Assembly: GCF_001953175.1 (NCBI RefSeq)
Contig: NZ_CP018258.1
Location: 1,330,210-1,394,209, forward strand
Direction: 5' to 3'
Length of the DNA stretch: 64,000 bases
DNA from: Dehalogenimonas formicexedens
GTDB lineage: Bacteria; Chloroflexota; Dehalococcoidia; Dehalococcoidales; Dehalococcoidaceae
Shown here: one piece after another, positions 52,521 to 56,471 of the stretch
How the letters are laid out: the number at the start of each line of letters is the position of its first letter
Position numbering within the stretch: the stretch's first letter is position 1
The notes under the pieces: model-generated
The model's database searches: none
Told to the model about the DNA's origin: nothing
The model's input: only the letters and a program-made list of their open reading frames with translations
Translations under genes and position numbers: made by a program

Positions 52521-52548
52521 AGAGGCTGGCGTCCCGGCGCCAGCCTCT
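52521..52548 (+). terminator. Hairpin after hcp
   Basis: An 11-bp perfect stem AGAGGCTGGCG / CGCCAGCCTCT with a 6-nt loop, 9 nt after the hcp stop. No T-run follows on the plus strand, so it may act as an mRNA 3' end stabiliser or a weak terminator. Confidence 0.65.
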
Positions 52549-52586
52549 ACCGGGACGAATAAAGAAAATTATCCTATAATAAAAAC

Positions 52587-53192
52587 ATGAGCATCAAAGT
52601 TACCGTTTTCTCTGACTACATCTGACCGTTCTGTTATATCGGCAAGGGACTTGTCGACAGTTTCAGAGACGAATTCGATATCGATGACACCTGGCTCGGG
52701 TTCGAGATTCACCCGGAAACGCCGCCGGAAGGGGCCGACGTCAGGAATCGTTACAACCCCGAGGATATCGCCCAGTTATCGGAGATGCTGCGCCGCCGGG
52801 CGGAGGAACTCGGACTCCCCTATGACCCGGCGCCCATCCTGGCAAATTCCGCCCTGGCTCTGGCCGCGGCTGAATTCGCCCGCGACAACGGCCGTTTCCG
52901 GGAATTTCACCATGAGATGCTTTCGGCGGTCTTCGCCCGGGGCCAGAACATCGGGTCGAGAGACGTCATCCGGGAGACCGCCAGCCGCGCCGGCCTGGAT
53001 GGGGCGGCGATGCTGAAGGCGATCGATCAAGGGGCATATGTCGAACGTCTGCGAGAATCGCAGGCCCAGGGACATGAACTGGGCGTCACCGGAGTCCCGA
53101 CCTTCATCATCAACGACCGCTACGCTATCGTCGGCGCTCAGCCAATCGAGACCTTCCGGCGTGTTCTCCGGCAGGCCCAGGCAGCTTCCTGA
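52587..53192 (+). CDS. DsbA/FrnE-family oxidoreductase, candidate selenoprotein (UPFC active site, in-frame TGA)
   Basis: From the ATG at 52587 the frame runs 12 codons (MSIKVTVFSDYI), meets TGA at 52623-52625, then continues with PFCYIGKGLVDSF to a TAG/TGA-free end at 53190, 201 codons in all. FrnE/DsbA proteins have SDYxCPFC(Y/F)IGK here, so the TGA replaces exactly the nucleophilic Cys of CPFC. The rest is intact: FEIHPETPPEGADV, AEFARDNGRFREFHHEML, the cis-Pro loop GVTGVPTFIIN, and a normal length. A SECIS-like hairpin follows the TGA. A TATAAT (52575-52580) lies 6 nt before the ATG, so the mRNA is probably leaderless. It would be a thiol/selenol oxidoreductase. The alternative is a nonsense mutation. 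Confidence 0.8.
52631..52660 (+). promoter_or_regulatory. SECIS-like hairpin just after the in-frame TGA
   Basis: CGGCAAG (52640-52646) pairs with CTTGTCG (52650-52656) through seven pairs, one a G-U, around a GGA loop. CTGT (52631-52634) can pair with ACAG (52657-52660) below an internal bulge. The apical loop begins 21 nt after the TGA and starts with G, both within the known limits for bacterial SECIS elements. Judged by eye; no folding energy was computed. Confidence 0.65.
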
Positions 53193-53270: not shown

Positions 53271-53726
53271 GTGAGTGATATCAGGGTTGTCGCCACCAAC
53301 CAGAAGGCGTACCACAACTATTTCATCAGCGACCCGGTAGAGGCCGGGCTGGTACTGACCGGCACCGAGATCAAGTCTCTGCGCGGCGGCCGGGTAAGCT
53401 TGGGCGATGCCTACGTCAAACCTGAAAACGGCGAGATGTGGCTTTTGAATGCCCATATCGCCCGGTATGAGCCGGGCTCATACATGAGCCATGAGCCGAC
53501 CCGGCAGCGTAAACTGCTCATTCACAAAAAAGAGATGCGCGCCATGCTCTGCAAAATCAAGGAGCGGGGCTTGACCCTGGTGCCGACCAAGATCTACATC
53601 AAGGGCAATGTCGCCAAGGTGGAGGTGGCGGTGGGCAAGGGCAAGAAGCTCTATGACAAGCGCGAGGTCATCGAGAAGCGCGAATGCGAGCGGGAGCTGG
53701 GCAGGATTCTCAAGAGCCGGCTCTAA
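53271..53726 (+). CDS. smpB: SsrA-binding protein
   Basis: A 151-residue SmpB, which binds the tRNA-like part of tmRNA and brings it to stalled ribosomes. Text: NQKAYHNYFISDPVEAGLVL, GTEIKSLRGGRVSLGDAYV, HIARYEPGSYMSHEPTRQRK and KGKKLYDKREVIEKRECERE. The start is a GTG at 53271, with TATAAT (53259-53264) only 6 nt upstream, so the mRNA is probably leaderless. ssrA begins 6 nt after its stop, so the protein and its RNA partner are adjacent. Confidence 0.97.
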   Translation: MSDIRVVATNQKAYHNYFISDPVEAGLVLTGTEIKSLRGGRVSLGDAYVKPENGEMWLLNAHIARYEPGSYMSHEPTRQRKLLIHKKEMRAMLCKIKERGLTLVPTKIYIKGNVAKVEVAVGKGKKLYDKREVIEKRECERELGRILKSRL

Positions 53727-53732
53727 CATCAT

Positions 53733-54087
53733 GGGGACGCGTGGTTTCGACAGGGGAGGTTAGTTACGGAATTGCGGGTTGAGCTTGCCGCTAAGCTCAT
53801 TAATCCTGGTGGCAAAATACAATTGGCGAACGTGAACTCGTTCTCGCCGGCTAAATAAAGCCAGCGCATCCGCCGCGCTCCACCCCAACGGGCGCGGACC
53901 GGGTGCCGAAAGATTGGGGTGCCGCGTCCTTGACGCCGATACGGGAAGCGAAAGAAAAATTGGCTGGCCCCTAAAGATTCCGCCGGTTGAAGCTTAAAGG
54001 GCGAGAAACAAACATCCGGCTAGACCTGTAGTAGATTCCGGGCAATCTTTTCTGGACGGGGAGTTCGACTCTCCCCCGTCTCCACCA
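53733..54087 (+). ncRNA. ssrA: Transfer-messenger RNA (tmRNA)
   Basis: About 355 nt. The 5' end GGGGACG pairs with the 3' end CGTCTCC, with A and an encoded CCA at 54085-54087. The 5' part GGTTTCGACAGGGG and the T arm GGGGAGTTCGACTCTCCCC are typical. The tag frame at 53825-53854 reads GERELVLAG then TAA, ending in a hydrophobic degron-like tail. It follows smpB. Its 3' end is the insertion site of the island that occupies the rest of the window and is overlapped by the antisense end of the recombinase gene. Confidence 0.98.
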
Positions 54088-55672
54088 GAAACACAGCCGA
54101 GCCTTTGGGAGAAGCTCCCAGAGGCTCGTTTATTATGTGGATCTTAGAATCCTTCTTCGCTGAAGCTACCTGGAAGATAGGTCTGAAAGGTGGTTTAGGC
54201 ATCACTGCGATCACCCTCTTCCCAGCTTTGGCGTCGATGTAGACTGCGTCCAGTATGGTGAGGAGTATCTTCCTTTGCTCAGAAAGCGTTGCCGAAGCCC
54301 ATAACTTGGGAAGATCCAGGATAAGTTTACCGGCAGCTTCTGCGGCGTTGTAGTCAGGCACCACCAATGATTCAAGGCTGAGTTCAAGCAATCTCTTCTG
54401 CCGCTTGTACTCTTCTTCGGGCATGACGTTATCGACATATGCCCTGCCTAGTCGAAGGAGTCTTGCTTTGACCTCGTCGCGTTCCTTTTTGATCCGCTCA
54501 ACATCATCTTTAAGACTGATTATTGACAGCACTTCTTCCAACCATTTCGGTCCGAGTTCGATAGCCGAAACTAACTCTCTCACCTGATTGTCAATAGTAG
54601 AACATGTTATGGCACCACCATGACCCCGACAATCCTCGATACTCCTGGTGGCTTTGTGCTCCCGATAATATGAATTGCCACTGGTGTAAGTCTGAGCCCA
54701 CATCGGCATGCCGCAGTAAGCGCATCTCACCAGACCTTTGAGCAAGTATTCCCTTTCAGGATGAGACGAAAGCGTCTCGGACCTCCCTGAGTTCTTCTTG
54801 AGCAAATCTTGGACGGCAATAAAGACCTCTTTGCTGATCAGGGGCTGGTGAGCGCCGGGTAGAGCCTTACCCTGATACACGACTTGTCCGGTAAAGAAGG
54901 GATTGTGGAGGATTCCTCTGATGGATGCCGTTGTGAAGAGCCTGGGACCTGCTACAAGGTTGCCAATGGCGTCGGGTGAGGCCTTGGTGTTCCGGGTGCG
55001 GAAACCCTCAGCATTAAGCCACCCAGCAAGGCTGCTTAGGGTGCCGGTGCCTGAGGCGTAGCGCCTGAATAGTTCGGTTACTGCTGGTCCTTCGGTTGGG
55101 TGGATGTGAATACCGCCAGAATGCTCAGGATCACACTGTTTGACCTTCTCTCCCTTGGAACTATCCCAGCAGGACTGGTATCCGAAAGGGATTGCCCCGT
55201 GATGCTTGCCCTCGTAAATCCGCTGCTCCTGCCCTTTCTTCACATGCTTGGCTAGCGATGATGAGAAGAACTGATTGAAGGCTCCCAGCATGTGCATCGA
55301 AAGCATGCCTTCAGGCGTTGAATAGTCGATACTCTCGGTAATGGAGACGAGCCCGACGTGATGTTTGGCCAAAATCGATAAGGACTCGATGGTTACCTTC
55401 ATATTCCGGGACCAGCGATCAAGAGTATGGATCACGATGACGTCAAATTGATGTTTTGAGGCATCTTCCAGCAGCTGCCTGAAGACCGGACGTTTGGCGA
55501 TGGCGTCGACATGAGCGCTCTTGCCTTCTTCCCGGTAGACGCCGACCGGTTGCCAGCCCCTGTTCTGACAAAGTTCCCGGAAGAGCCTCTCTTGAGCAGT
55601 GAGTGAATGCCCCTGAACCTGGGACACATCCGATACCCGGATGTAGGTGACTGCTCGTTTAGCTTCAGTCAT
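54020..55672 (-). CDS. Large serine recombinase, overlapping the tmRNA 3' end
   Basis: A 550-residue large serine integrase. The N-terminal resolvase domain has VTYIRVSDVSQVQGHSLTAQ with the nucleophile Ser in VS (about residue 14) and VIHTLDRWSRN. A recombinase domain (about 165-300) follows, then a zinc ribbon with CAYCGMP and later Cys (about 335-365), a coiled-coil part (about 385-440) and a long tail. The final 22 codons (54020-54087) are antisense to the tRNA-like end of ssrA, so the tail depends on the integration site and would change on excision. It is the last gene of the island operon and probably the ssrA-specific integrase. Confidence 0.95.
   Translation of the reverse strand: MTEAKRAVTYIRVSDVSQVQGHSLTAQERLFRELCQNRGWQPVGVYREEGKSAHVDAIAKRPVFRQLLEDASKHQFDVIVIHTLDRWSRNMKVTIESLSILAKHHVGLVSITESIDYSTPEGMLSMHMLGAFNQFFSSSLAKHVKKGQEQRIYEGKHHGAIPFGYQSCWDSSKGEKVKQCDPEHSGGIHIHPTEGPAVTELFRRYASGTGTLSSLAGWLNAEGFRTRNTKASPDAIGNLVAGPRLFTTASIRGILHNPFFTGQVVYQGKALPGAHQPLISKEVFIAVQDLLKKNSGRSETLSSHPEREYLLKGLVRCAYCGMPMWAQTYTSGNSYYREHKATRSIEDCRGHGGAITCSTIDNQVRELVSAIELGPKWLEEVLSIISLKDDVERIKKERDEVKARLLRLGRAYVDNVMPEEEYKRQKRLLELSLESLVVPDYNAAEAAGKLILDLPKLWASATLSEQRKILLTILDAVYIDAKAGKRVIAVMPKPPFRPIFQVASAKKDSKIHIINEPLGASPKGSAVFLVETGESRTPRPEKIARNLLQV
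54099..54133 (+). terminator. Terminator for ssrA supplied by island DNA
   Basis: A 13-bp stem GAGCCTTTGGGAG / CTCCCAGAGGCTC (one G-T pair) with a 3-nt loop, 11 nt after the tmRNA CCA and followed by GTTTATTATG. It lies inside the recombinase coding region, on the island side of the junction. Confidence 0.75.
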
Positions 55673-55850
55673 GGGAAACCTCTCTTATCGAGTTTCCTCT
55701 TGAAGCGACGGACAGAGCGACTTCAGCGATGGTGTTGAAGAAGTGCTGTAACATTATGTCGTCTAACTCTCCACCTTCAAAAGTGGCGGGGATTGTATAG
55801 CGAAGGGGTATACCCGTCAACGACTTATCGGGCATCTCCTTGGGATCCAT
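55665..55850 (-). CDS. Small protein between the two recombinase genes
   Basis: A 61-residue frame that starts right after the stop of the small resolvase gene and overlaps the large recombinase start by 8 nt, so it fits exactly in the coupled operon. The sequence is mixed, with a predicted helix in the middle (LDDIMLQHFFNTIAEVALSV), and has no recognised domain. It could be a recombination directionality factor or accessory subunit. This is only a positional guess. Confidence 0.65.
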   Translation of the reverse strand: MDPKEMPDKSLTGIPLRYTIPATFEGGELDDIMLQHFFNTIAEVALSVASRGNSIREVSHD

Positions 55851-56471
55851 CTAGTTGGTCTCCCTGCCCTTGTCAGCGTCGAGTAACCGCTTGAAAGTGG
55901 CATAACCGATGCGGAGCTCTCTCGCTGCCTGGCGTCTTGATAACTCTCCAGCTTTGAGGCGCTCCAAAACTGCTCCATAAGTCTGATTGAAACCTCGCCT
56001 GTCGGTTACCCTTGGTCGCCCTATCTGCATCCCCTGTTTCCGGGCACGGTCCATGCCGGCCTTAACCCTTTCTCTCAAGATCGACCTCTCCATTTGGGCA
56101 TAAGCGACAGTGATGTAATAAAGGACTTCACCAAAAGGCGAGGTGGTGTCCAGCCAGGGCTCGGTGTAAGAACGAAGACCGACTCCCCAGGTCTTCAGCC
56201 TTTCGAGGGTAGTCGCGGCATCAAGCACTGACCGGAAAGCCCGGTCCATTCTCCAGACAAGGATCAAGTCAAAACGCCGCTTACTGGCGTCACTAAGAAG
56301 TTCGCGCCAGGAGGTCCTATGGACAATATCGGTGGCAGACACTTGATCTGAGTATTCATTGTAAGTCTGCCAACTCTGCGACTTTACGAACTCTCTTAAA
56401 GGCATGAGTTGGGTGGCAAGGTCTTGATCCTTGTCCGAGGTCGATACTCTGGCGTAAATCGCGACTCTCAT
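55851..56471 (-). CDS. Small serine recombinase (resolvase/invertase family)
   Basis: A 206-residue recombinase. The catalytic domain begins VAIYARVSTSDKDQDLATQL with the nucleophile Ser in RVST (Ser about 10), and continues with DLILVWRMDRAFRS and ERSILRERVKAGMDRARKQG. The C-terminal 45 residues form a resolvase-type helix-turn-helix (GELSRRQAARELRIGYATFKRLL, cited in parts: LSRRQAARELRIGYATFKRL). It may resolve circular intermediates or help the large recombinase. It starts 4 nt after the preceding gene's stop. Confidence 0.93.
   Translation of the reverse strand: MRVAIYARVSTSDKDQDLATQLMPLREFVKSQSWQTYNEYSDQVSATDIVHRTSWRELLSDASKRRFDLILVWRMDRAFRSVLDAATTLERLKTWGVGLRSYTEPWLDTTSPFGEVLYYITVAYAQMERSILRERVKAGMDRARKQGMQIGRPRVTDRRGFNQTYGAVLERLKAGELSRRQAARELRIGYATFKRLLDADKGRETN

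Follow-up and report, generated by a model that had tools for sequence, protein, structure and literature searches.

Gene organization and reading frame

The window, i.e., the whole stretch of 64 kb of the Dehalogenimonas formicexedens genome that was analyzed here, contains on its forward strand a reading frame that translates as MSIKVTVFSDYI-TGA-PFCYIGKG...QAAS-TGA (Table 1). The internal TGA, codon 13, is the only one within the frame, it sits at the first Cys of a CPFC active site and it is followed by 188 sense codons. The only Cys in the translated protein is residue 16. If the TGA is not recoded, the longest ORF left in this frame begins at ATG 52785, encodes 135 aa and has lost the active site. 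A preliminary description of the locus had placed a single TGA exactly at the codon for the first Cys and had predicted that gene calling without recoding would start downstream and drop the active site; both points were borne out by translation.

Table 1. Features of the selenoprotein candidate locus (window coordinates).
Feature	Position	Strand	Description	Basis
GC-rich inverted repeat	52522..52547	+	possible terminator between two units, after upstream gene	read from sequence
TATAAT -10-like box	52575..52580	+	6 nt before ATG	TATAAT/TATACT at an unchanged distance from the ATG in each of the four Dehalogenimonas orthologues
CDS, Sec-containing FrnE/DsbA-family protein (very probable)	52587..53192	+	201 residues with Sec at position 13; the real stop is the terminal TGA	translation, PF01323, purifying selection, AlphaFold
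In-frame TGA, read as Sec (very probable)	52623..52625	+	first redox residue of UPFC	Sec/Cys pair in homologues, no other stop
TGT codon	52632..52634	+	resolving Cys (residue 16) of UPFC	translation; Cys16 invariant in alignment A1
Putative bacterial SECIS hairpin	52639..52657	+	8-bp stem, TCGGCAAG (52639-52646) / CTTGTCGA (52650-52657); loop GGA (52647-52649)	

The upstream regions of the four Dehalogenimonas orthologues have otherwise diverged around the -10-like box, and the TATAAT/TATACT box is missing before two homologues of family f81. As the box ends 6 nt before the ATG and keeps this spacing in four species of the genus, being absent from the two f81 homologues, the mRNA may be leaderless in Dehalogenimonas. 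Leaderless-type starts are not general in the window, such a -10 box preceding only 5 of its 76 ORFs of ≥150 aa, many of which are chance frames. The neighboring smpB (53271-53726, GTG start) likewise has a TATAAT whose end lies 6 nt from the start codon, and TATAAT is found 6–8 nt before smpB in four other Dehalogenimonas species; smpB transcripts are probably leaderless. Further downstream, the tmRNA gene (ssrA, window 53733-54087) has its last base at genome position 1,384,296, and the dcpA island described for D. formicexedens NSZ-14 at 1,384,297-1,407,259 starts one base after it (PMC13390414). The recombinase genes directly past the tmRNA (54020-56471, reverse strand) form the edge of this island (PMC13390414).

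Fold and family of the encoded protein

With Cys put at the TGA codon, the translated protein matches PF01323 (DSBA) over residues 5-194 with an E-value of 3.8e-37. AlphaFold predicts the structure with a mean pLDDT of 95.2 and a pTM of 0.90; the xPFx redox motif is present at the N-terminus of helix 1, residue 13 immediately preceding helix 14-28. The conserved Pro of the GVP loop, P171, is invariant in 44 sequences. FrnE of D. radiodurans provides the best PDB matches in Foldseek (E 3.7e-16, about 30% identity) and is also found by phmmer (2.6e-27 against PDB FrnE). The open frame of 188 codons with an intact FrnE/DsbA fold, as claimed earlier, is thus upheld by the Pfam match, AlphaFold, and Foldseek. 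A search of the D. formicexedens genome with PF01323 found the Sec form as the only protein. None of the NCBIfam models scored above its cut-off for the window protein; the best of them, Rcas_1661_fam_Se, remained far below.

The window protein resembles drFrnE (DR_0659; PDB 5CNW, 5CO3, 5COH, 5CP1, 5XWH) in its whole-length fold (TM 0.85–0.91 by query), in the position of the CP(W/F)C motif, in the GVP loop and in its predicted cytoplasmic location. It differs from drFrnE in having a predicted Sec in place of the first Cys and in lacking the C-terminal CXXXXC that regenerates drFrnE (PMC8945050), no Cys being found in the translation beyond residue 16. The CXXXXC is missing also in FrnE of D. 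maricopensis and S. roseofulvus, and it is present in many and not in all FrnE proteins, so that it is no defining feature (PMC8945050). Since the window protein has no other Cys, its regeneration must differ from that of drFrnE.

The 135-aa in-frame ORF with its own ATG leaves room for a reading in which the TGA is a real stop, translation re-initiates downstream, e.g., at ATG 52785, and the 12 upstream codons form a leader peptide. Under selenium scarcity, translation usually terminates in part at a Sec UGA, which would fit such a reading as well. However, the sequence between TGA and ATG 52785 is conserved and codes for helix 1, strand 2, and one half of the active site, and a hairpin behind the TGA is required only for recoding of the UGA, so that we regard re-initiation as very improbable.

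Orthologues within Dehalogenimonas

The gene occurs in three further Dehalogenimonas species, in each with a single TGA at the equivalent codon, the proteins being 70–76% identical. Downstream of the TGA, dN/dS between species amounts to 0.09–0.19, with dS >1.1. In all four gene-bearing species smpB follows 3′ of the gene. The other four of the eight species possess smpB and the gene does not adjoin it; the gene is missing in these species and is therefore dispensable. In the closest relative without the gene (G005, smpB 94% identical), smpB comes straight after hcp, and no remnant of the gene was found in the gap of about 95 nt between hcp and smpB.

Distribution of Sec and Cys forms in the class Dehalococcoidia

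Searching 393 genomes of the class Dehalococcoidia, mostly draft assemblies, revealed a match in 195, and the best-scoring 130 sequences, which are related and not independent, were examined. Codon 13 is TGA in 99, TGC in 22, and TGT in nine of these best 130 homologues and no other codon occurs, and their matched frames contain no stop of any kind apart from this TGA. The best 80 homologues of the genome_contigs collection, from outside the class, have Cys in all 80 cases, the seeds of this search including a Cys-containing peptide pattern that may favor Cys forms.

The form of the gene follows the machinery for Sec insertion. A SelA match was obtained for 88 of the 97 TGA-form genomes and for 10 of the 28 Cys-only genomes (Fisher p 1.5e-7 for strong matches). 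Among the nine TGA-form genomes without SelA, SelB scores over the cut-off in seven, and fragments or none were found in two; altogether, SelA or SelB is matched in 95/97 TGA-form genomes. A single origin of Sec was considered and is not established: in a quick tree with several long branches 17 Sec/Cys changes are needed, of which at least 10 are forced by well-supported branches.

These data bear on the reading that a nonsense mutation or a sequencing error has hit a Cys gene and that the locus is a pseudogene or an artefact. This would explain why standard callers would show a truncated gene, and the four members of the genus without the gene could be taken to point the same way. It is refuted by the TGA that 99 homologues share at the same codon, none of them with another stop, which also rules out a sequencing error; the dN/dS of 0.09–0.19 after the TGA and the clean absence of the gene from the closest gene-less relative argue against it as well, and we consider it extremely unlikely. 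The preliminary description had judged a chance nonsense mutation at this very codon to be improbable, and it had named TGA or a Cys codon at this position in orthologues with downstream conservation as support, and disrupted copies in relatives as refutation. The 99 shared TGA codons agree with the first judgment, the orthologues show TGA or TGC/TGT and nothing else followed by a conserved sequence, and no disrupted copy was found among the relatives, those without the gene lacking it cleanly at the locus.

The putative SECIS hairpin

According to the bSECISearch distance rule, a bacterial SECIS element is an in-frame hairpin with its loop about 16–37 nt past the UGA and a G among the first two loop bases. 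In line with this rule the GGA loop of the window hairpin starts at a distance of 21 nt from the UGA. The hairpin is conserved and its stem covaries in TGA homologues. None of the Rfam families matches the hairpin. Among 49 frames of similar size in the 64-kb window that read through a TGA, this one ranked second for its SECIS-like hairpin; the top-ranked hairpin precedes an ABC-transporter gene, in a frame where the TGA comes after only 7 codons. The hairpin with a G-starting 3-nt loop at the right distance from the TGA, to which the preliminary description had drawn attention, is present and is conserved with compensatory change. Its stability alone is not significant (z -1.6; 11/200 shuffles equally stable), and as the hairpin is unremarkable in the window alone, the case rests on comparison.

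Residues encoded by the hairpin keep identical codons in 5/6 cases compared to 22/111 elsewhere (p 0.002), and adding two homologues with 43–46% identity sharpens this to 5/6 versus 2/45 (p 5e-5). Measured against synonymous recoding, the mean z of stability is -1.60 for TGA genes and -0.68 for Cys genes (Mann-Whitney p 1.3e-6). At least seven of the eight pairs are formed in 81/99 TGA genes compared to 7/31 Cys genes of the class and 2/80 Cys genes from outside, and the loop begins with G in 89/99 TGA genes. Shuffling of the 3′ arms among TGA genes yielded a maximum of 6.47 pairs in 2000 shuffles, compared to 7.02 pairs observed. Elsewhere among the TGA genes the stem sequence differs without loss of pairing, as in TCGGCCTC / GAGGTCGA around GTG, and in several of the remaining TGA genes the hairpin is displaced by one base or has a longer loop.

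The window gene shares the 20-nt stretch ATCGGCAAGGGACTTGTCGA without any difference with two homologues of the class, L115 and L116 of family f81, whose proteins are only 43–46% identical to the window protein; this identity with Dehalogenimonas may reflect either a strong constraint on the RNA or gene transfer. In L035, the closest Cys homologue, which derives from a Gaiellales MAG, all eight pairs are kept including a compensatory change from C-G to G-C, and this hairpin seems to be left over from a Sec ancestor. Some Cys genes of Dehalococcoidia, e.g., L135, L227, and L235, also have a well-paired hairpin at the SECIS position, and together with that of L035 these hairpins are possible relics of Sec-to-Cys conversion.

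Selenocysteine machinery in the genome

The complete set of genes for Sec insertion, named in the preliminary description as a check of its proposal, was found as one cluster, selC-selD-selA-selB, at genome position 2056145-2061139. It encodes a tRNA-Sec (70 bits) with the anticodon UCA, SelD (359 bits), SelA (525 bits), and a full-length SelB (358 bits, positions 2-578 of 581). SelA is matched in all eight Dehalogenimonas genomes and in none of three genomes of the sister genus. The genes selD and fdnG of the same genome contain one in-frame TGA each. SelD and FdnG share with the window protein the genome, the selCDAB machinery, and a single in-frame TGA with a downstream hairpin; as proteins they are unrelated to it. 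A formate-dehydrogenase-like frame in one Dehalogenimonas species (L151, G008:C1:1435585-1436295) has a TGA in CARL-TGA-HAPTVAGL that is followed by a hairpin. No stop is present in the corresponding matches of the other Dehalogenimonas species, which are weaker.

That the UGA is decoded here as Cys or another standard residue, as the uniform Cys of the homologues outside the class might suggest, is barely credible: the gene itself terminates at TGA, which means that UGA is not reassigned, a dedicated SelB, a tRNA-Sec (UCA), and a hairpin are present, and the TGA tracks SelA/SelB across genomes.

Proposed mechanism and function

Taken from sequence, structure prediction, and comparison, the gene very probably encodes a cytosolic thiol-disulfide oxidoreductase of the FrnE/DsbA family whose catalytic first residue is Sec (UPFC), inserted via SelB at the UGA. 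The comparison of homologues, the machinery, and the hairpin all support the Sec-containing DsbA/FrnE protein with a UPFC active site that was originally proposed, and the locus is judged to be a real selenoprotein gene that is probably unannotated. As judged from the anatomy of the locus and the comparison, SelB with Sec-tRNA(Sec) would bind the hairpin past the UGA, which would be decoded as Sec; the next 188 codons would be translated normally and the protein would be ended by the second TGA. Positioned at the N-terminus of helix 1, the Sec selenolate would then attack the disulfides of substrates as a nucleophile, and the mixed selenenyl-sulfide would be resolved by Cys16. For drFrnE, a function as cytoplasmic disulfide reductase was proposed, and in vitro it accepts electrons via thioredoxin reductase (PMC8945050). 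By analogy, the window protein would most likely serve under oxidative or thiol stress as a disulfide reductase or isomerase linked to thioredoxin reductase.

Relation to known selenoproteins and implications

A 2006 paper reported bacterial DsbA-like selenoproteins (PMC1794560), the marine GOS survey described "DsbA 1" (UxxC, PF01323) (PMC2398784), and DsbA-like selenoproteins were found in two Lokiarchaeia (PMC11227280). A review from 2026 lists them with NIP15863.1 as example in its table (PMC13188914). Form 1 is known from marine metagenomes, Anaeromyxobacter, Desulfovibrio, and Desulfotomaculum (PMC2398784, PMC13188914, PMC1794560). The window protein combines PF01323 with UxxC as is characteristic of this form. 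It shares with GOS DsbA 1 the PF01323 domain, predicted Sec as the first residue of UxxC, and bacterial recoding, and differs in coming from a cultured organohalide-respiring Dehalogenimonas. It likely belongs to the same subfamily as NIP15863.1 and DsbA 1. The UxxC DsbA-like selenoproteins are thus an already established class, to which the window protein adds a Dehalogenimonas member.

The only selenoproteins named for Dehalogenimonas in two genome papers are SelD and FdnG (PMC4918011, PMC13390414); the window selenoprotein is not named there and is probably a third one. No relevant paper that links FrnE or SAR202 to selenoproteins was found by searching the literature, and in a limited literature search the extent of the Sec form in Dehalococcoidia, TGA in 99 of the best 130 homologues, was not found stated. 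Because no NCBIfam model scores above its cut-off, automatic annotation probably truncates the gene or calls it a pseudogene, and roughly a hundred homologues in the Dehalococcoidia genomes sampled would be affected likewise.

A wider reading, which we put forward tentatively and hold to be possible rather than probable, is that Sec-containing FrnE is old and predominant in Dehalococcoidia with repeated switching between Sec and Cys, that the class may be a main reservoir of DsbA-like selenoproteins, and that the Dehalogenimonas mRNA is leaderless, so that recoding falls into the first 75 nt of an mRNA starting at the AUG. If true, SelB would act inside the very first part of an AUG-first Dehalogenimonas transcript. 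The Sec and Cys homologues with their intact and decaying hairpins provide good material for studying gain and loss of Sec, and the selenoprotein would connect the thiol redox control of dechlorinating anaerobes with their supply of selenium.
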